Source: a virus
Strand: one strand, 5' to 3'
DNA: 50,426 bases
Virus record (IMG/VR): IMGVR_UViG_3300049255_000074
Location: 1-50,426 of that record
Every line of letters begins with the position of its first letter. Position 1 is the first letter of the stretch. Made by a program: the position numbers and the translations under genes. A model generated the notes under the pieces. It had not been told where the DNA came from and made no database searches. It worked only from the letters and a program-made list of their open reading frames with translations. Positions 50-26,594 of the stretch are shown one piece after another.

Positions 50-1689
<1,640 letters not shown>

Positions 1690-1693
<4 letters not shown>

Positions 1694-6781: not shown

Positions 6782-7063
6782 TTATTCTTCTTGTTTCACG
6801 CTTTCGACGGCGGCGACGATGTCCCAAAAGAGGTCCGCGCTTGGAACGAAGTGGCAGCCATCGATGCCTGAGAACTGGAACAGCGATACGTCGGCCTCTT
6901 CGATGCTTTGGTATTCGAGCTTCAGCGGCTCGGACCCCGGTTGATATAGAAAAAAGTAGGCACCTCTAACGCGCTTGCCGCGCTCGATCTTCGTCTCTTC
7001 CGTTGGAGGACTGAAGAAGGTGGGTTTCGGCTTTCTCACGGCTGCGTCTTCTGCGACTTCCAA
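6782..7063 (-). CDS. Hypothetical protein downstream of the partition pair
   Basis: 93 residues with no family I recognise. Mixed alpha/beta composition with an aromatic core (GAYFFLYQPG, FWDIVAAVE). Its start overlaps the end of the ribbon-helix-helix gene by 28 bp, so it is probably the third gene of the parA operon. Confidence 0.5.
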   Translation of the reverse strand: MEVAEDAAVRKPKPTFFSPPTEETKIERGKRVRGAYFFLYQPGSEPLKLEYQSIEEADVSLFQFSGIDGCHFVPSADLFWDIVAAVESVKQEE

Positions 7064-7311
7064 GGTTGATACTGACCGAGACCGTATTTAGCGAACAGCA
7101 TCCCGACAGCCTCGTCCACGAGCTGCTGCATACTGGTGTTGTGATCGGCTGCCAGCCGCCGAAGTTTCAGGTGCATGTCTACCCGAGTGTAATAGGTGAG
7201 GTTCGTGCGCCCGGTCGTTCTGACGCGACGACGGGGGATGATCGGCTGAACTTCGACGCCGCCGCCCAGGGCGTCATCCAGGTCTGGATTTACGAGAGCC
7301 TTCTTGCTCAT
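7036..7311 (-). CDS. Ribbon-helix-helix partition/repressor protein (ParG-like)
   Basis: 91 residues. The start at 7311 is used because its ATG overlaps the parA stop (ATGA) after GGAG. An unstructured basic N-terminus (IIPRRRVRTTGR) precedes a ribbon-helix-helix fold: the strand RTNLTYYTRV, helix MHLKLRRLAADHNT, and second helix SMQQLVDEAVGMLFAKYG. Small RHH proteins encoded right after a short ParA are the centromere-binding and autorepressor partners in type Ib partition systems (ParF-ParG class). The flexible basic N-tail fits that class. The likely target is the 8-bp repeat array at 8042-8145. Confidence 0.8.
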   Translation of the reverse strand: MSKKALVNPDLDDALGGGVEVQPIIPRRRVRTTGRTNLTYYTRVDMHLKLRRLAADHNTSMQQLVDEAVGMLFAKYGLGQYQPWKSQKTQP

Positions 7312-7931
7312 AATGTGATCTCCGCTTTGAGCCATTCATAAAGAGCTTTGAACTCCAGATCGCTTTCGCTTCCCGGATTGGTCTCCCCAACGCCCTGGCC
7401 TCTGGCAATGGCATCAGGAACGATGATTCTCTGGACGATAACTGCCGGACAAACGGGATGCCCCTTGCCGGTCAGATATTCGATGACGTGGTTCGCGCGC
7501 TGACGCTGCGGGGTCGATATGTTCATGAGGTAGCTGTAACGCTTGCGCGCGCCTTTGGCCGCTTTGACGGTCTCGACACTGGCTTCGAGGTCAACATCGA
7601 GCGGGCGGCAGGGAACAAGGATAAGGTGCGAGGCAATGAGGCCCGCGCTCGCCACAGGTGCGTTTCTGCCGGGCAGGTCCAAGAAAGCCCAGTGGTAGCC
7701 TTCCCGCCGCAAGCGTTCGAGAGTCGTCTGAAGATTGACCGCGTTTCCGGCCATCACGGCAGGCGAGTCCTTGCCGCGCCGCTTGCGCCATTTGAGCGTT
7801 GTGCCTTGCTCATCGTCCATATCTATGATGGCCGCTTTCTGCTGGTGCGCGACCGCCTGACAGGCGCAGTTAATTGCAGCCGAGCTTTTGCCGACGCCCC
7901 CTTTTTGCTGACCGAATGCGACTATTTTCAT
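7308..7931 (-). CDS. parA: ParA-family partition ATPase, type Ib size
   Basis: 207 residues with the deviant Walker A motif KGGVGKSS (10-17), Walker A' region DMDDEQGTTLKW and Walker B-like WAFLDLPGR. It lacks an N-terminal HTH, as in short ParF/Soj-like ATPases that pair with small centromere-binding proteins. Such ATPases position low-copy plasmids on the nucleoid. Co-transcribed with the RHH gene. A promoter (-35 TTGATT, 17 bp, -10 TATAGC) lies at 7998-7970, with a palindrome copy at the predicted start point. A second weaker copy lies in the codons right after Walker A (AINCA). In a prophage, ParA suggests plasmid-like maintenance at some stage. Confidence 0.9.
   Translation of the reverse strand: MKIVAFGQQKGGVGKSSAAINCACQAVAHQQKAAIIDMDDEQGTTLKWRKRRGKDSPAVMAGNAVNLQTTLERLRREGYHWAFLDLPGRNAPVASAGLIASHLILVPCRPLDVDLEASVETVKAAKGARKRYSYLMNISTPQRQRANHVIEYLTGKGHPVCPAVIVQRIIVPDAIARGQGVGETNPGSESDLEFKALYEWLKAEITL
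7865..7878. promoter_or_regulatory. Palindrome, two mismatches (CGCAGTTAATTGCA)
   Basis: Inside parA, encoding AINC just after the Walker A motif, 73 bp from the copy at 7952. Confidence 0.45.
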
Positions 7932-8041: not shown

Positions 8042-8145
8042 TCTGATCCTGGAATTTATCGATTATCTGATCCTGCGAGGGTCTGATCTCAGGATCACCT
8101 GATCTTAGGATCGTCTGATTTTCTGATCCTCTGACGAACAGACGA
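8042..8145. repeat. Array of 8-bp repeats, TCTGATCC consensus
   Basis: Read in steps of eight from 8042: TCTGATCC, two diverged octads, TCTGATCC (8066), a diverged octad, TCTGATCT (8082), CAGGATCA, CCTGATCT (8098), TAGGATCG, TCTGATTT (8114), TCTGATCC (8122), TCTGACGA, ACAGACGA. Copies keep an 8-bp register and some are inverted (AGGATC). It lies in the non-coding gap between parA and the divergent gene at 8164. RHH proteins such as the omega repressor bind short (7-bp) tandem repeats of this kind, so it is the best candidate centromere and operator for the 7036-7311 protein. Confidence 0.75.
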
Positions 8146-8163: not shown

Positions 8164-9453
8164 ATGGCGCACCACCTCCGCAACCTCACTGTCCTCCTGT
8201 GCATCGCGCCTTCCGCGATCATGAACATATGGCCGCGAATAGGGGCGGCACTTCAGGGCGGGACTTTGGATGCGAGCGCTGCGGGAGTTGTGGTTTTGCA
8301 GGCTGCGGCAGTTGCCACTATGGCGGCAGTCCCGCTCGGTGTTTCGAAGGGCAAAACTACCGTGCTCAAACTGGCGTGCCTCGCACTTGGGATCGCGCTT
8401 TTCTCTTTGAATTTGTTCAATGCAATAGAGGTTGCGAGCCATGTGCGGGAGTCTGTCACGAGCGGCACTTCGACGGCACTTGTGAGAGCTGCGGCACTTA
8501 AGTCCCGCATTGAGAAACTGCGCAAGTCCCGCAGCGAACTCCCGCAGCAACTCCCGCCCCAAGTCCCGCCCCAAGTCCCGCAGGGTGCGGGAGTACAAGT
8601 CCCGCAGCAACTCCCGCCCCAAGTCCCGCCCCAAGTCCCGCAGGGTGCGGGAGTACAAGTCCCGCTGCAAGTCCCGCCCCAAGTCCCGTACACAAGTCCC
8701 GCGATGGTGAGCGCCGCGAAGGACGCCATGAAATCTGCCGAGACGGCGCGTGACGCGGAGTGCCGGTGGGCCGCAAAAGCCTCGCCGAAATGCGACCAAA
8801 GAGAAGCCGAGTTCAAAGCTGCTCTCGCGGAGTTTAGCCGACTTACGGCGCAGCTCGAATTGACGGAGAGAGCGGATAAGCTGGACCGGGAGATCGAATC
8901 CGCCGAGAGGGAAATGGAAAACCTGGGACCGCTTCCTAAGCACGTAGACGCGGCAGCCGCGAGGATCGCGTCTCTCTTGAACGTGTCCGAAGAATGGGTT
9001 CACGAGAACTGGCCGACGTGGCTTGCAATCGTCGTGGAGCTGCTTGCTCTGTTCGGCCCGGTGACGTGGGTAGAGGCGATGGCCGAGCCGCGCCTGCCGC
9101 CTATGCCGCAACCCAAGCTCAGTAAGGGTGGCAGGCCCAAGGCCGCGACCACTGCTGCCCCGGCCCCCAAGACTCGGAAATCCACAAAGTCTAAGCCGGT
9201 CGGGAGCGGTGACATCCAGACCTGGTTCTCAGAGCAGACACTGAAGAAAGACGGGCACGGAATCCGCGTCAGTGAGGCATACGATGCCTACGTGCAATGG
9301 TGCACAGGCCGGTCGGAGAACCCGGTCAGCCTTACCGTGTTTGGCACAACGATGAAAAAGGATTTGGCCGTGGACTATGCTGAGAAGTCCAAGAGAGGAT
9401 TCTATATCGGGATTGCCCTAAAGAACTCGGCCCTCAAGGTCGTCTCGGTATAG
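8164..9453 (+). CDS. Membrane protein with coiled coil and D5-like C-terminal domain
   Basis: 429 residues on the plus strand, divergent from parA. Three hydrophobic helices near the N-terminus (about 8-25, 38-60, 66-86), then a basic helix, a Pro/Gln/Val repeat (QVPP/QLPP units, about 121-180), a charged coiled coil (about 185-262), another membrane helix (about 283-303), a basic linker, and a C-terminal domain (about 354-425). The last resembles the wing-helix end of D5/primase-type proteins (RVSEAYDAYVQWC, FGTTMKKDL, GFYIGIAL). This suggests a membrane-anchored DNA-binding protein, perhaps tethering the adjacent arrays; inference only. No Shine-Dalgarno before 8164; ATG at 8221 is an alternative start. 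Confidence 0.65.
   Translation: MAHHLRNLTVLLCIAPSAIMNIWPRIGAALQGGTLDASAAGVVVLQAAAVATMAAVPLGVSKGKTTVLKLACLALGIALFSLNLFNAIEVASHVRESVTSGTSTALVRAAALKSRIEKLRKSRSELPQQLPPQVPPQVPQGAGVQVPQQLPPQVPPQVPQGAGVQVPLQVPPQVPYTSPAMVSAAKDAMKSAETARDAECRWAAKASPKCDQREAEFKAALAEFSRLTAQLELTERADKLDREIESAEREMENLGPLPKHVDAAAARIASLLNVSEEWVHENWPTWLAIVVELLALFGPVTWVEAMAEPRLPPMPQPKLSKGGRPKAATTAAPAPKTRKSTKSKPVGSGDIQTWFSEQTLKKDGHGIRVSEAYDAYVQWCTGRSENPVSLTVFGTTMKKDLAVDYAEKSKRGFYIGIALKNSALKVVSV
8245..8702. repeat. GCGG(G/C)A(G/C)TT motif array inside the gene
   Basis: About 25 copies of AA(G/C)TCCCGC or its complement. From 8524 to 8702 they recur mostly every 12 bp and encode QVPP/QLPP, including a 60-bp tandem duplication (8537-8596 and 8597-8656). 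Outside this, copies at 8245, 8258, 8281, 8305, 8327, 8445, 8462, 8491 and 8500 lie in both orientations and different reading frames, encoding unrelated residues. That points to selection on DNA rather than protein. Confidence 0.65.
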
Positions 9454-19249: not shown

Positions 19250-19263
19250 TGCAATTAATTTCA
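19250..19263. promoter_or_regulatory. Palindrome, one mismatch (TGCAATTAATTTCA)
   Basis: Overlaps the primase stop and lies about 94 bp ahead of SSB. A TTGACT hexamer follows on the minus strand. Confidence 0.6.
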
Positions 19264-20247
19264 GATTTCCTGATCGAAAGTGACGTAGGGCGCGAGCGCT
19301 TCTTTCAGCTCGTCAACGGTCATCTCGCCAGGGTCTTTCCGGTGGGGCGGCACCTCTGGAAACGTAAGGACGTTGCTCTTGCTCAGCGTCTTCTTGAAGG
19401 CAGCGCGGCCCGCATCCCCGCCTTTGCCACGGTCAAAGAAGATCACCATCTCGGTTGCCAGCAACATGCGCTTGATTTTCTCAGCGCCTGGGCTTGCGAA
19501 CAGAGGGCTGACCACGTTCCTGTAGACCCGCATGACCGACGCCAAGTCCATCGGACCCTCCACCACGACAACGGGCTTGTGCGTGTGAACCCAGCTCTCC
19601 CCGAGCCATACGATTGGGTTGTTCTTGCCGCCCTGGAGATACATGCGATAACGAGGTTCCACGCCGGGATCGACGGCGCGACCGTGCAGGCCCATGAGCC
19701 GTCCGTTAAAGTCTCTAACAGGAAAGCATACCCGGCGCTGGTGCGTGTCGGCCCGAATGTCTAGAAGTGCAGCCACGGTGTCTGTGACGCCGCGCTTCTT
19801 GAGGTAGTCGCGCGCGAACGGGACTTCGCTCCACGCAGGGAAGCTGTCGAGCCACCACTGCGGGAACTCCCTCGATTGAACCTTGTTCGCGTAAACGTCC
19901 TCCACTGACCCCCAGGCGGTGAGATCGACAAACTCCGAAACGCTCAGCTCGTCCAGCAGTGCCGAGTATTCAGCCCAGTCGATGTCGAGCGCCGGGGACT
20001 GCTTGTTGTTGTGCCTGATTTCGTAAGCCAAGGCCGACAGGCTTCCGCTCCAGTTGCACGAGAAACAGTGCGTGAATGCGTCGCCGCTTTCCTTCTTGAC
20101 CGCAAAAGAAGGGTTTTTGTCCGTGCCGTTGTCGTGCCTCCAGAAGCGCAAAGGGCACGGCGCGATGAGCCATCCTGCGCGAGACTGAGCAATCGGGGGC
20201 TTGGACTCGATCAGAGTCAACAGCTTTCTGAGGGCGTCGAGGTTCAT
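19261..20247 (-). CDS. DnaG-type primase
   Basis: 328 residues. An N-terminal zinc-binding region has CPLRFWRHDNGTDKNPSF then HCFSCNWSGS (about 31-72). A Toprim domain follows: VVVVEGPMDLASVM (about 221-234, catalytic Glu) and VIFFDRGKGGDAGR (about 272-285, the D-x-D-like acidic pair). About half the length of cellular DnaG, as usual for phage primases. It would prime lagging-strand synthesis with the DnaB-like helicase encoded 1.4 kb away. Confidence 0.88.
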   Translation of the reverse strand: MNLDALRKLLTLIESKPPIAQSRAGWLIAPCPLRFWRHDNGTDKNPSFAVKKESGDAFTHCFSCNWSGSLSALAYEIRHNNKQSPALDIDWAEYSALLDELSVSEFVDLTAWGSVEDVYANKVQSREFPQWWLDSFPAWSEVPFARDYLKKRGVTDTVAALLDIRADTHQRRVCFPVRDFNGRLMGLHGRAVDPGVEPRYRMYLQGGKNNPIVWLGESWVHTHKPVVVVEGPMDLASVMRVYRNVVSPLFASPGAEKIKRMLLATEMVIFFDRGKGGDAGRAAFKKTLSKSNVLTFPEVPPHRKDPGEMTVDELKEALAPYVTFDQEI

Positions 20248-21664: not shown

Positions 21665-21678
21665 CGAAATTAATTTCA
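21665..21678. promoter_or_regulatory. Degenerate palindrome (CGAAATTAATTTCA)
   Basis: Ten base pairs from the exact copy, at the end of the DnaB-like gene; it keeps the central AATTAATT. Confidence 0.4.
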
Positions 21679-22950
21679 GATTTGCAGGTCGCTCAAATTC
21701 TCGGAGACGGCCTCCGCGAAGTCCATAGACTTGAAATTCCAGTTCGTATAGAAGCGGCCCGTCTCGCCGTGACGGCCTTTGAGAATATCGGCGCGTCTGC
21801 GAATGATCGTTTCCACACTCTCGTCCTCGAAAAAGCCAATCGCAAGAGAACTGACCTGGGCGATCACGTCCGAATAGCCGATGTCGTTCAGATCGGCCTT
21901 CTCGCCCTTCTGCGTGTTTTTCTTCGCTGCGCTTCGAGCAAACTGCCAGCTCACGACAACCGGGCAAAGCGGGGCGAGCATCGATTTCATCAATTCGGCG
22001 TTCTCCGCAACGCGGCGATAACGGTCGTTCTCGTGGGGATGCCTGACGAGGTATCCGCCGTCGATAAAGATCGCACCCGGTTTGAGCTGCGATGCGAGCG
22101 CCCAAATGTCTTCGACGGTCGCGGTGAGGTTGCCGTCCACAACCCAAAACGGATGGGCGAAGCCTTTGATCTCGGTGAGGCCGTTCTTGAGGCGCGCGAC
22201 CTCGGCTGAGGTGAGCTGCGTTTTCTTGAGATACCCCATCGGGATTTTCGCGTACATCGCGGCCAAGCGCTGCTCTATAGGCAGCACGCCCATTTCCATG
22301 CTGACAAACAGGCGGGACTGGTTTTTGTATTTCTTGGGATCGACACCGGCCTTTGCCCAGCCGTGGAGCGCCGCGTGCAACATCATCCACGTCTTGCCCG
22401 TCGCAGGACGGCCCACGAAGCTCACCACGTCCCCTTTCACCAGACCGTTAGCCATGGCGTCCAGAGACGGCCACCCCAGCTCCAGGCCCTCCAGCTCGTC
22501 TTCGTCGCCGAGTTTGGACGAGTAATCGCCGATGACGAGATCGTAAGCCTCGCGGAAGTCCACGACCGATTTCTGCTGCTTCTCGGACATGAGCTGCCGG
22601 ACGGTCTCAGCCAAGACCTGCAAAGGCTTCGCGGTGTCCACCTTGTCGGCTTTCATGAGGTTCTGGACCTCTTGCAGACGGAGCTTGAGGGTGTCCTCGA
22701 CGTGGCGGCGCACCAGCCCATCGTAGTAATAATCGACCGGCTCAGAGATGCTGAGAAGCGGCTCGCCGGTATGGGCCTCGACGGTCGGACCGGTCGGCAG
22801 CGCATGGTACTTTTTCGCAAAGTCGCGCACGAACTCGTAGATCGGCTGTTCGGTTCCTTTGAACAGGTGATCGATCCTGCCGTACTGCATGAGCGCCGTG
22901 CTCGAACCGCTGTTGATGACAGCGGACAAAAATAGCCTGCCTAACGACAT
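21676..22950 (-). CDS. DnaB-like replicative helicase
   Basis: 424 residues. A helical N-terminal domain (to about 120) precedes a RecA-like ATPase: LGWPSLDAMANGLVKGDVVSF, Walker A GRPATGKT (about 178-185), SMEMGVLPIEQRL, Walker B-like GAIFIDGGYLV and VVVSWQFAR. Standard DnaB family order and length. It unwinds DNA for replication from the iteron origin inside 23537-24577, presumably loaded by the initiator or the 22966-23529 protein. Confidence 0.87.
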   Translation of the reverse strand: MSLGRLFLSAVINSGSSTALMQYGRIDHLFKGTEQPIYEFVRDFAKKYHALPTGPTVEAHTGEPLLSISEPVDYYYDGLVRRHVEDTLKLRLQEVQNLMKADKVDTAKPLQVLAETVRQLMSEKQQKSVVDFREAYDLVIGDYSSKLGDEDELEGLELGWPSLDAMANGLVKGDVVSFVGRPATGKTWMMLHAALHGWAKAGVDPKKYKNQSRLFVSMEMGVLPIEQRLAAMYAKIPMGYLKKTQLTSAEVARLKNGLTEIKGFAHPFWVVDGNLTATVEDIWALASQLKPGAIFIDGGYLVRHPHENDRYRRVAENAELMKSMLAPLCPVVVSWQFARSAAKKNTQKGEKADLNDIGYSDVIAQVSSLAIGFFEDESVETIIRRRADILKGRHGETGRFYTNWNFKSMDFAEAVSENLSDLQI

Positions 22951-22965
22951 GGGCTAACCTCGGGG

Positions 22966-23529
22966 TTAGATTTCGTATCTGAGGTAAGAGCTGGTTATGA
23001 GGCGGCGAAACGCGGCCCCGTAGTCTTCGCCGACGCCCTTGAGACTCGTCGCGTAAAGGACCGTCTGCAAGCCATGCAAGGACCGGTAGGTGAGGTAGTC
23101 GAGAAGCCCCTGGGTTTGCCAGGGAGAGAGCTTCCCGCCGCCCTCGGGCTGCGTGAGATAGAAATTCGGGATGAGCAGGCACGACAGGTCCGGCATCTCG
23201 CCTTTCGGGAGCATGTCCAAGACGGTCCCGAGTGTCGCCACGCGGGCGCGGATGAAGTTCCGCACCAAGACGCCGCACATGGCCGACATGATGCTATCGA
23301 CGTTGCAGTTCTCGTTCTGGCCGAGAATGACAAGGCCCGAGATGTTGCCAAGATGGTGCCTGCGGAAGCTGAGAAGGTAATTTTTCAGAGCGCCCGAGAC
23401 GTACTTCGGGAGCGGCTGGTAAATCCAGTGCGGCTGGATGCCAGCATCGAAGGCATAACCCGACAGATTGGCGACCAGCCGCTCGTGCGTCTCCTGCGTC
23501 AAGACGCCGAACTGATAGGGGTCAGCGGT
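22966..23529 (-). CDS. Hypothetical protein between initiator and helicase
   Basis: 187 residues from ATG 23529 (GGAG 8 bp upstream). No family recognised. Globular, with IQPHWIYQPLPKYVS, an LVILGQNENCNVDSIMSAM core and TSLKGVGEDYG. Position between initiator and DnaB-like helicase suggests a helicase-loader-like task, which sequence alone does not show. It overlaps the initiator stop. Confidence 0.6.
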   Translation of the reverse strand, partial: TADPYQFGVLTQETHERLVANLSGYAFDAGIQPHWIYQPLPKYVSGALKNYLLSFRRHHLGNISGLVILGQNENCNVDSIMSAMCGVLVRNFIRARVATLGTVLDMLPKGEMPDLSCLLIPNFYLTQPEGGGKLSPWQTQGLLDYLTYRSLHGLQTVLYATSLKGVGEDYGAAFRRLITSSYLRYEI

Positions 23530-23536
23530 CATCGGG

Positions 23537-24577
23537 CTACTCCTCGGCATCCCCGTTCAAGATCGCCAGAAACTCTTCGTAGGTCGCGGGTTTCGGCTGT
23601 ACGGGTTTGGGTTTCGTCTCTGCAATTAATTGCACGGGTTCGGGTGAAGGTAAAGAGGGAGCCTCATGCTCCACAACCTTGGACTTCGCTTTCGGGGTGA
23701 GAGCACAATTAACCGCAACCTGGAGATTTTGCAAGAGGTATCCAATCGAGGGCAGTCCAGATTTCGTTTTTTTGTTGTCGAGCACACTGACCTGGAAAAC
23801 AAACTCCTCCCAGTTCCTGACGGCCCACTCGACTACCGTGAGCGCTGTATCGGGCGGGCATAGGTTCAGGATGTGCTTGAGCTGGCCTTTCTGAGTACCG
23901 TTCACGATCACGAAATTTACACCATGCACTTCGGAGACAAGTTCCTTCCAGAGCATAACGAGACCGGAAACATTACAAGGCTTCGGCTTGCTCTTTGCCT
24001 TTGACATGGCCTTAGCTATTTCGGCAACCTTCATCTTCGCTTCTCCCTCCGAAACTTCTTTCCCAAAATCTATACCCGAGCAATTCTTGACTGATGCGTC
24101 AGCATCAGGCCCAGGCTCTTGTATATCTCCTTTTTCTTTTATACCTCCATTATAATATATCTCTATATTATGACAGGTCCCTCCAGGGACCAATGGTAGG
24201 GGGGTATGAGTCCCTACAGGGACCGATGGTGTCTGAGTTGAAGTCCCTCCAGGGACCGATGGTTTTTCAGTTGAAGTCCCTGCAAGGACTTTTACTCCAT
24301 GCTCTGTAAGGCGCATGAGAGCTATTTTTCGGCCATCGAAAAAAGACAATTTTGACTCGATAATGCCCTTTCTTTTTAGAAGCGAAACGGCCCGCTTGTG
24401 CTGTTTTGGGGTCAACCTTGTTTCTTCAAGCCAGCGCTCGGTCGGCAGTGTGGCCCAGTATTCTCCACCCCGAATGAACTTGGTGTGGCGCATCCAGTAA
24501 GAGAGTCTGAGAAGGAATAAGGCGGACGGAAGATCATCACCGCTGGCTGCCATGCAGCGCTCGACAAGGTTGACCAT
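23537..24577 (-). CDS. Replication initiator protein with internal origin
   Basis: 346 residues. The N-terminal part (about 17-93) looks like a winged helix: LFLLRLSYWM, TERWLEETRLTPKQHKRAVS, LLKRKGIIESKLSFFDGR. Then residues about 94-137 are four 11-residue repeats (SVPGGTSTEKP, SVPGGTSTQTP, SVPVGTHTPLP, LVPGGTCHNIE) written by 33-bp iterons, next to an AT-rich stretch. A C-terminal helical domain (about 190-285) follows, then a linker with QLIA from a palindrome. An initiator with iterons in its own gene is the lambda O / P22 gp18 arrangement. Start 24577 has GGAGC upstream. Confidence 0.75.
   Translation of the reverse strand: MVNLVERCMAASGDDLPSALFLLRLSYWMRHTKFIRGGEYWATLPTERWLEETRLTPKQHKRAVSLLKRKGIIESKLSFFDGRKIALMRLTEHGVKVLAGTSTEKPSVPGGTSTQTPSVPVGTHTPLPLVPGGTCHNIEIYYNGGIKEKGDIQEPGPDADASVKNCSGIDFGKEVSEGEAKMKVAEIAKAMSKAKSKPKPCNVSGLVMLWKELVSEVHGVNFVIVNGTQKGQLKHILNLCPPDTALTVVEWAVRNWEEFVFQVSVLDNKKTKSGLPSIGYLLQNLQVAVNCALTPKAKSKVVEHEAPSLPSPEPVQLIAETKPKPVQPKPATYEEFLAILNGDAEE
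23621..23634. promoter_or_regulatory. Palindrome exact copy inside the initiator gene
   Basis: Encodes QLIA near the initiator C-terminus, about 90 bp upstream of the 23529 start. Confidence 0.7.
24119..24296. other. Putative replication origin: four 33-bp iterons plus AT-rich region
   Basis: Iterons GTCCCT(C/A)CAGGGACC(A/G)ATGG start at 24177, 24210, 24243 and (diverged) 24276, exactly 33 bp apart. Each contains a GTCCCT/AGGGAC inverted repeat. Immediately to the left, 24119-24176 is very AT-rich (tataatatat, tctatattat), a plausible unwinding element. As in lambda, the origin lies inside the initiator gene. Confidence 0.75.
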
Positions 24578-24676: not shown

Positions 24677-25339
24677 CTATTCGAAGCTGATGTCGCTTTC
24701 TGGCGCGTCTTGGACGAGCTTTTCGATGTCCTTCATGGAGATCACCTGCCCAGCCGTTTTGTCCATCGCTTCGCGGAGCTTGCGAAGCTTTTCGGCGCGG
24801 GCAAACAGGGCTTCAATTGTCTGGTCGTAAGTCTCCGAGAGCCAGGTCGTGATTGCCCTTGAAGGCACGACGAGGTTTTCATGGCCGATCAAGCCCGCGA
24901 GGTATTCCGTGACCAGTTGCGGTATCTGATTTTCCTTCATGGAAGCGACCAGCACTTCGATGCTGTTGTGCTGGTTGCCTTGGAGCAGAATACCAAAGTC
25001 CTTGGACGCCCTGGTATTGTCTGAGCGATCCCATTCGATAGGCAGAGCATCGCCCGGCTTATCGAACGTCTTGAGGTCTTTGAACGGCACGATAGGGTTG
25101 CTCTCGGTCGTTTCGAATAGAGAGCCGCCGAACGCCGCCCGGAGCTTAAAGCCGAACCACGTCGCTTCGCTGTTGCCGCCTACGGCTCTCCCGTTTGCGA
25201 TGCTCGTGGGGCGAACGCCGATGGCGACGTTGCCGATCCGGCCAATCCACAGGTAGCTGCTGCCGCTGAAAGTCCCGTTCATCATTTTGTAGGAAGGGGC
25301 TTCCTCGTTCACTTGTGTTACTTCTGCTGCTTCAGTCAT
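24677..25339 (-). CDS. Hypothetical phage protein
   Basis: 220 residues. The beta-rich N-terminal part (GTFSGSSYLWIGRIGNVAIG, FGFKLRAAFGG) is followed by a helical half (SETYDQTIEALFARAEKLRK). Located between the AAA+ ATPase and the initiator, probably expressed with the ATPase as an early gene pair. I know no family for it. Region 24578-24676 contains nothing I can identify. Confidence 0.65.
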   Translation of the reverse strand: MTEAAEVTQVNEEAPSYKMMNGTFSGSSYLWIGRIGNVAIGVRPTSIANGRAVGGNSEATWFGFKLRAAFGGSLFETTESNPIVPFKDLKTFDKPGDALPIEWDRSDNTRASKDFGILLQGNQHNSIEVLVASMKENQIPQLVTEYLAGLIGHENLVVPSRAITTWLSETYDQTIEALFARAEKLRKLREAMDKTAGQVISMKDIEKLVQDAPESDISFE

Positions 25340-25403: not shown

Positions 25404-26594
25404 TCAAGCTTGTTTTTTCAAGGATTTCACATAGGCATAGCAGGCGGTCGTTAAGGCAGCCTGGCTATACATCGAGGGCTGTGAATTACCTGCGATTGGT
25501 TTGACCGACGATTTGAGGATTGGGGTTACGTCGGTTGCTGAAAGTTGGATGCTGAACGTGTCGAGCACCGATTGCATGAATGAGATTGCTTCGATCTCGC
25601 CAAGCCCGCCGAACCACATCGACTGGTCTATGCGCCCATCACGATACAGCTCTTTCGGGAGGGCCGAAGCGTTGTTCGTCGTCATAATCACCAGGACGCG
25701 GGAACGCCGCTCAGCGAGCCACCAGAGGAGCTGTGAGAGCATCGTCTGCGTGGTGTCTGACGTGTCGTGCGCGCTGGTCGAAAAGACCTTCTCGACTTCA
25801 TCGAACAGGGCAACGCACGGCTCTTCGTGATCCAGGCGCGCAAGGTTCGATAGCATGTTCGCTTCTGACGCGCCCATCCACTTGCTCTTTGTGCCGCCGA
25901 TGTCCACTCGATAGAGGGGCACGCCGAAGCGCTCGGCCACAAACTTTGCGCCCGCCGTCTTGCCCGTGCCGGGAGGCCCGTCGAAGAGAAGCCCGCGCGG
26001 CACAAGGCGGTGATCCTGGCATTCGAGAAAGAAGGACTGTTCCGTCGCGATCCAGTTCGCAAGCTTCTTGGGCGGGATATAGAAGTTCTGGCGGGTGTTG
26101 ACGTGGTTAAGCCCCGCAGACCCTTGGAAGATCGTTCGGCGGGTCTCGGCCAATCCTTGGACTGTCAGACCGCCTTCGCGCGCCATAGTAAGGGAAGCCA
26201 GCTCTGCGCATTCTTTGAGAGTGCAGCCGCCGAGCGCGCGGGACAGCTCAGAAGCTTTCTTCATGTCCTGAACAATCGAGTGCATGAAAGCAAGCACGAG
26301 CTTTTTGGGGACCGGGACTTCGCCTGCGTCGAACATCGGTTCGCGGACGCTAACCGGGTTCACGAGGATAAGCGTGCTGTTGGCCTTCTCCATGACCGTG
26401 TAGACGGAGTGAAGCGAAAGCTTGGTCACGTCGCTCGTATAGTAGTAGAGCGTTTCTGGCTTGACCTCTCCTTTGGGATCGTACTTGAGAGGTGTCTTGC
26501 CGGTGATTTCTTTGAGGACTTCCGGCAGATTGATCCTGTCGCGTGTCGTGACCGCGATTAAAGGCAGACCTGATTTTACGCTGAGTTTAAGCAT
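25404..26594 (-). CDS. AAA+ ATPase
   Basis: 396 residues with a single AAA+ module: Walker A GPPGTGKT (about 204-211), KSKWMGASEANM, Walker B VALFDEVEK (about 262-270), sensor-1 VIMTTNN and an arginine-finger region KELYRDGRID (about 315-325). The N-terminal 170 residues are unfamiliar and likely select the substrate. No protease domain. Closest in style to FtsH/katanin-type AAA ATPases used in phages for protein remodelling. Starts after GGAGGG. Confidence 0.85.
   Translation of the reverse strand: MLKLSVKSGLPLIAVTTRDRINLPEVLKEITGKTPLKYDPKGEVKPETLYYYTSDVTKLSLHSVYTVMEKANSTLILVNPVSVREPMFDAGEVPVPKKLVLAFMHSIVQDMKKASELSRALGGCTLKECAELASLTMAREGGLTVQGLAETRRTIFQGSAGLNHVNTRQNFYIPPKKLANWIATEQSFFLECQDHRLVPRGLLFDGPPGTGKTAGAKFVAERFGVPLYRVDIGGTKSKWMGASEANMLSNLARLDHEEPCVALFDEVEKVFSTSAHDTSDTTQTMLSQLLWWLAERRSRVLVIMTTNNASALPKELYRDGRIDQSMWFGGLGEIEAISFMQSVLDTFSIQLSATDVTPILKSSVKPIAGNSQPSMYSQAALTTACYAYVKSLKKQA

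Follow-up and report, generated by a model that had tools for sequence, protein, structure and literature searches.

A probable replication origin with 33-bp iterons inside the initiator gene of a phage

Introduction

In bacteriophage lambda the replication origin lies within the gene for its initiator, O (PMC7466680, PMC3985674). Four dyad iterons, followed by an AT-rich tract, stand in the middle of this gene, and the O protein has a winged-helix-like N-terminus and a C-terminus directed towards helicase loading (PMC7466680). In SPP1, oriL lies inside gene 38, where direct repeats in the initiator gene are joined by an AT-rich unwinding element, and the order gp38-gp39-gp40 runs from initiator through loader to the phage's own DnaB-type helicase (PMC6316719). 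A third group, the RepA_N initiators of pSK41, pTZ2162 and the Vibrio cholerae PLE satellite (RepA), has semi-palindromic iterons with which the N-terminal domain co-varies (PMC7145576, PMC8263062).

Here we describe a locus in IMG/VR virus record IMGVR_UViG_3300049255_000074. We refer to the whole stretch analyzed, 50,426 bases and probably a fragment, as the window. We find that 24119-24289 is very probably the phage replication origin, judged from sequence comparisons, and that it lies inside the gene of its own initiator. This layout of an intragenic iteron origin is already known from lambda and SPP1, and the present phage is another case of it. As in ori-lambda, the putative origin is in the middle of the initiator gene, and its four dyad iterons precede an AT-rich tract; as in SPP1, the genes for initiator, putative loader and a DnaB-type helicase follow each other.

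The initiator gene and its product

The initiator gene and the predicted domains of its product are as follows.

23537..24577, minus strand: initiator gene, 346 aa, O-like/DnaD-like replication initiator by PHROG profiles, just upstream of the candidate loader and DnaB genes
24281..24577, minus strand: predicted winged-helix DNA-binding domain, aa 1-99, an AlphaFold2 block with pLDDT mostly >90
24041..24247, minus strand: predicted disordered linker, aa 111-179, pLDDT < 50, which carries iterons 2-4 (iteron 2 partly) and the AT-rich tract
23699..24028, minus strand: predicted C-terminal domain, aa 184-293, all helical, a block with pLDDT mostly >90

The protein matched PHROG 6493 (DnaD-like helicase loader, E 1e-4) and PHROG 678 (O-like, E 0.011), and in the aligned family (n=32) 26, 18 and 24 members matched PHROG 6493, 678 and 428, respectively, below 1e-3. 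By these profiles it is classed as an O-like/DnaD-like phage initiator. The initiator had no Pfam family match, and a PDB sequence search with it found nothing. The best structural matches of the N-terminal domain were 4pql, 4pt7 and 5kbj (Z 10.4, 10.2 and 9.6), described as a DNA-binding protein, an initiator and a Rep-DNA complex, although generic MarR-type winged helices, which reach 9.3, score only ~1 Z unit lower. Both 4pt7 and 5kbj are RepA_N plasmid initiators (PMC7145576). The RepA_N group provides the nearest solved N-terminal winged helix, including a complex of Rep with iteron DNA (5kbj), but its members belong to a plasmid or satellite context and the window protein lacks a Pfam match. 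In the C-terminal domain, which is presumed from the model to contact the loader or helicase, W210 and W256 are invariant across the 32 sequences.

A sequence-only reading of the window had proposed a lambda-O-like origin here. The layout it implied, with DNA-binding domain, iterons, AT-rich tract and C-terminal domain in one gene, has strong support from the relatives and from a lambda O control (see below). Homology to lambda O does not: a profile comparison found none, hhalign giving a probability of 0.2% with lambda O as a single sequence, and on this comparison the window initiator is not a demonstrable relative of lambda O.

Iterons and AT-rich tract

Inside the gene at 23537-24577 (minus strand) there are four 14-bp dyad sites. 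In plus-strand coordinates they start at 24177, 24210, 24243 and 24276, with a spacing of 33/33/33, which confirms the positions and the exact 33-bp interval reported earlier.

24276..24289, unstranded: iteron 1 (counted along the gene), which reads GTCCTTGCAGGGAC on the gene strand and has a mismatch in one arm
24243..24256, unstranded: iteron 2, GTCCCTGGAGGGAC
24210..24223, unstranded: iteron 3, GTCCCTGTAGGGAC
24177..24190, unstranded: iteron 4, GTCCCTGGAGGGAC, adjoining the AT-rich tract
24119..24176, unstranded: AT-rich tract, candidate DNA unwinding element, 76% AT, the top 58-bp value of the window

Three of the iterons are perfect copies of GTCCCTNNAGGGAC, and the fourth, GTCCCTGCAAGGAC, has a single mismatch in one arm. 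Because of this mismatch, the earlier statement that each iteron carries an inverted repeat was slightly generous; it holds for the three perfect dyads. No further site fitting even a relaxed iteron pattern was present elsewhere in the 50-kb window. The AT-rich stretch beside the iterons is also as had been read: at 76% AT, compared with ~43% AT for the genome, 24119-24176 exceeds any other 58 bp in the window, and it adjoins the last iteron in the direction of the gene, i.e., on the gene-3' side. The predicted disordered linker takes in the AT tract and the greater part of the iterons, which accounts for how coding sequence can accommodate an origin.

The iterons do double as protein repeats. 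They code for VLAGT, VPGGT, VPVGT and VPGGT, within units at 11-residue spacing (VLAGTSTEKPS, VPGGTSTQTPS, VPVGTHTPLPL and VPGGTCHNIEI), of which the last is conserved only in VPGGT. One could thus argue that the array is a protein feature only, an expanded Thr/Pro-rich linker repeat that resembles DNA repeats by chance, given that the 33-bp spacing is in frame, that the repeat is clean at the protein level and that linkers tolerate expansion. However, when we compared the best three-copy repeat score in the gene with that of reshuffled synonymous codons, keeping protein and codon use, the window scored 44 against a shuffle mean of 33.1 and maximum of 39. None of 1000 synonymous shuffles reproduced the DNA repeat, which therefore does not simply follow from the repetition in the protein. 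Nor would the protein need a perfect dyad in each unit, whereas the dyad score was 1.00 for the three copies scored (0/100 column shuffles).

The dyads could instead act in the mRNA, as hairpins that control translation or termination. RNA of the region does fold better than shuffles (z -4.7), but any palindromic DNA folds in this way, and a T run was not found on the gene strand behind the array. In addition, arm and gap lengths vary among the relatives, where several dyads are imperfect, and the order of iterons and then AT tract is that of the lambda ori. We consider a hairpin function extremely unlikely.

Initiators often autoregulate, and the iterons might accordingly be operators, bound by the initiator or a different regulator to control the initiator operon, rather than parts of an origin. 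The AT tract does contain a promoter-like CTGTCA-16-TATAAT in the orientation of the gene. Yet the promoter count of the region is that of the shuffles (2 vs a mean of 1.7), the array lies ~290-400 nt inside the gene, away from the promoter, and across the family the AT tract is conserved beyond codon needs (see below). Operators in place of an origin are thus very unlikely; a double role of the iterons, in autoregulation and replication, is possible.

A purine-rich repeat of ~12 nt (type CAGAGATTACTA; in RcZahn GGGAGATACGAA) is found in the AT tract behind the iterons, at 24041-24176 and at the same place in relatives. It is common to phages with different iterons, and lags of 4 and 8 nt are also raised. 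The repeat exceeds shuffles, with 28 of 33 in one reading frame; because it is mostly in one frame, DNA and protein causes are inseparable. It is possibly a single-strand binding motif.

Arrays in related initiator genes

A direct protein search returned four phage records, all of ~100 kb: Rhodobacter phage RcZahn, Stenotrophomonas phage DLP_3 and two Rhizobium phages. Searching IMG/VR for close relatives gave none with the single protein and one with a 5-sequence alignment. With a DnaB alignment as bait, we collected 61 non-redundant initiator genes located just upstream of DnaB relatives. A scan of a genome collection gave two MAG contigs, neither with a clear array. The window iteron pair was found elsewhere in IMG/VR on one contig, as two terminator-like intergenic hairpins of an unrelated phage, and this hit was discarded.

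RcZahn and the two Rhizobium records have a common gene order (AAA ATPase, unknown gene, initiator, small gene, DnaB, RNase HI, primase), and DLP_3 keeps synteny from the initiator through DnaB to the primase. RcZahn gp51 and Delepquintavirus DLP_3 gp045 are orthologues of the window initiator by sequence and synteny, and each carries an array of its own, spaced at 23 bp, in the corresponding part of the gene; the RcZahn array has three GGTGCA-n4-TGCACC dyads and is followed by TATATATA. They differ from the window in iteron sequence and spacing, and their records describe a helix-turn-helix or hypothetical protein and annotate no origin.

Simple copy counting (14-mer, 2 mismatches) under-detected arrays, so we used the three-copy score and called an array when it lay above all 60 synonymous shuffles. 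This was the case in 42 of the 61 initiator genes, and nearly all of these arrays start at nt 263-507 of the gene. The other 19 showed no clear array; among them are both Rhizobium phages and, from IMG/VR, the closest relatives L015, L016 and L018. At the same loci, an array was called in 0/60 DnaB genes and in 1/31 of the small neighbouring (candidate loader) genes, indicating that the test is well calibrated. As a positive control, the same scan of lambda O found the annotated iterons (nt 348, spacing 20 and 24), with the AT maximum directly after them. The two nearest IMG/VR relatives, L015 and L016, also have a second small winged-helix gene, like the initiator N-terminus, directly upstream of the initiator (L015:2095-2424 and L016:1848-2207).

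Most spacings in the family are 21-24 bp, and a few form a second group at 30-34 bp. The window spacing of 33 bp, compared with 20-24 bp in lambda, is about one helical turn above the common 23 bp, and that of L022 (34 and 33) is nearly the same. Because 54 of 84 intervals are not multiples of 3, the reading frame does not explain spacing. In particular, the arrays of relatives at the same place with 22 or 23 bp cannot be protein repeats; this applies to RcZahn and DLP_3, since 23 is not a multiple of three. The explanation by protein repeats only is therefore largely refuted, and we regard it as highly improbable.

The iteron sequence differs from phage to phage and is mostly palindromic (dyad symmetry at p<=0.05 in 32/42 arrays). 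In the interval 0-60 nt past the array, AT content is raised more than coding would require; at 20-40 nt the excess in the family was 0.105 vs 0.026 +/- 0.010 in synonymous shuffles. GC skew, which had been proposed as a check, does not mark the initiator locus in the window's own profile or in three relatives: in RcZahn (MW677529) the skew reaches a shallow minimum at ~42 kb, 5 kb away from its array at ~47.2 kb, and the others showed nothing.

Iterons and the N-terminal domain

With C-terminal identity controlled for, iteron similarity tracks N-terminal identity (partial r 0.61, 0/2000 permutations). The reverse, iteron similarity against C-terminal identity given the N-terminal, gave r 0.06 (p 0.09). 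Swaps are seen in individual pairs. The C-terminal parts of L059 and L064 are 89% identical and their N-terminal parts 9%; in L093 and L061, the N-terminal parts are 72% identical, the C-terminal parts 9%, and the iterons are similar. Because DNA neighbourhood adds to co-inheritance, this coupling is support, not proof, for the suggestion from sequence that the N-terminal domain reads the iterons. Similar coupling of the RepA_N domain and origins has been described in V. cholerae PLE satellites (PMC8263062).

Neighbouring genes and a candidate helicase loader

Around the initiator gene, the window encodes the following.

25404..26594, minus strand: AAA ATPase, two genes upstream of the initiator, Pfam AAA 1e-25, syntenic in RcZahn and the Rhizobium phages
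24677..25339, minus strand: conserved gene of unknown function, immediately upstream of the initiator and with a counterpart in this position in RcZahn and the Rhizobium phages
22966..23550, minus strand: 194-aa DnaC/DnaI-fold protein, candidate helicase loader, overlapping the initiator gene by 14 bp; PHROG 22850, unknown function
21676..22950, minus strand: DnaB-like replicative helicase, Pfam DnaB_C 5.9e-23, PHROG 19
19261..20247, minus strand: DnaG-like primase, PHROG 47 DNA primase, 5e-32

Gene 24677..25339 had no Pfam or PHROG match. The model of the 194-aa protein (pLDDT 94.7) matched DnaC 3ec2 best (Z 15.8), with DnaI and DnaA AAA+ domains also listed, and Foldseek gave E 1.2e-4 to DnaC in the DnaBC complex. 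Its fold is that of the DnaC/DnaI loaders, but the Walker A/B residues are missing: a Walker A motif is absent from 25/25 aligned members of the family, and the acidic pair of Walker B is replaced, mostly by Pro-Asn (25 members). Based on the model, the 194-aa protein probably loads DnaB, and its family is a candidate ATP-blind helicase loader. SPP1 gp39 is a small non-AAA+ loader, whereas the candidate in the window has an AAA+ fold. Lambda, in contrast, uses P and host DnaB where the window has a DnaC-fold protein and the phage's own DnaB.

Other elements of the window

Two further features may concern the maintenance of the phage.

7036-7931, minus strand: ParA-like ATPase and overlapping RHH protein gene
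83-1693, minus strand: large serine recombinase with Recombinase and zinc-ribbon domains, likely an integrase

The first of these raises the question of whether the iterons, instead of forming an origin, serve as a partition centromere or as the site of some other protein, particularly as a related phage, DLP5, persists as a phagemid (PMC5834331). However, the partition genes have a repeat array of their own immediately upstream, at 8081-8134 and 16 kb away from the iterons; the tandem CTGATC/GGATCA repeats just upstream of the ParA/RHH genes (8056-8134) look like a partition centromere. Moreover, the iterons co-vary with the initiator's own N-terminal domain. A partition role for the iterons is thus barely credible.

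A 60-bp tandem repeat occurs at 8537-8716 (plus strand), inside ORF 8164-9453, which we take to be the main plus-strand gene in the window. It was rejected as a second origin, as it codes for a Pro/Gln-rich (PQVPPQ-type) stretch of a probable membrane protein.

The 14-bp palindrome TGCAATTAATTGCA is present in 32 copies (<=2 mismatches) in the window vs 0.11 expected. The copies extend over window 1866-50289 (e.g., 10769, 16439, 21641, 26651, 40358, 45075 and 49463), most of them at, or <=200 bp upstream of, minus-strand gene starts. With <=1 mismatch the palindrome was found in 12 of 13 related records searched, and among these the L040 genome has 47 copies (as TGCAATTGATTGCA), that of L015 has 36, DLP_3 has 24 and RcZahn has 12. 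The distribution looks like that of operators of a phage-wide regulator, comparable to stoperators.

Discussion

Computation yielded the array with its conservation at the DNA level, the AT tract, the link between iterons and N-terminal domain, the predicted folds and the gene order, and we infer binding, melting, loading and initiation at block 24119-24289 as follows. Each 14-bp dyad iteron would be bound by the winged-helix domain (aa 1-99), probably in dimeric form, and the initiator copies on the four iterons would form a complex, roughly on one face of the DNA because the iterons are three helical turns apart. Strain from this complex would melt the adjoining AT-rich tract. The helical C-terminal domain, via the DnaC-fold protein of the next gene, would then deliver the phage DnaB to the melted strand, where the phage primase would come next.

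The sequence-only reading had considered the locus a lambdoid arrangement in an otherwise non-lambdoid phage, which is too narrow. Because the layout is normal in this large group of otherwise dissimilar phages and in SPP1, because neither Pfam nor a profile comparison ties the initiator to lambda O, and because the candidate loader and the helicase are not those of lambda, we do not regard it as an odd lambda feature in a foreign phage. Plausible, if somewhat short of probable, is a modular cassette in which the winged helix and the iterons would be inherited as one specificity unit in a single gene and exchanged among phages that keep the C-terminal domain, with loading by a DnaC-fold protein that would have lost ATP binding.

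Given the ParA-like gene, the RHH gene and the repeat array in the window, together with the DLP5 phagemid, the origin may also serve plasmid-like maintenance; the large serine recombinase points to integration as an alternative. In phages kept as plasmids, such as DLP5, the same sites could decide compatibility.

For the ~100-kb phages of the RcZahn and Delepquintavirus type, whose examined records annotate no origin, the locus described here provides a testable one. The absence of ATPase motifs from the DnaC-fold neighbour likewise poses a testable question, namely whether an AAA+ relative that is blind to ATP can load a helicase. More broadly, our analysis indicates that lambda's intragenic iteron origin is a layout general to the O-like/DnaD-like phage initiators, whose iteron sequences change fast, together with the DNA-binding domain.
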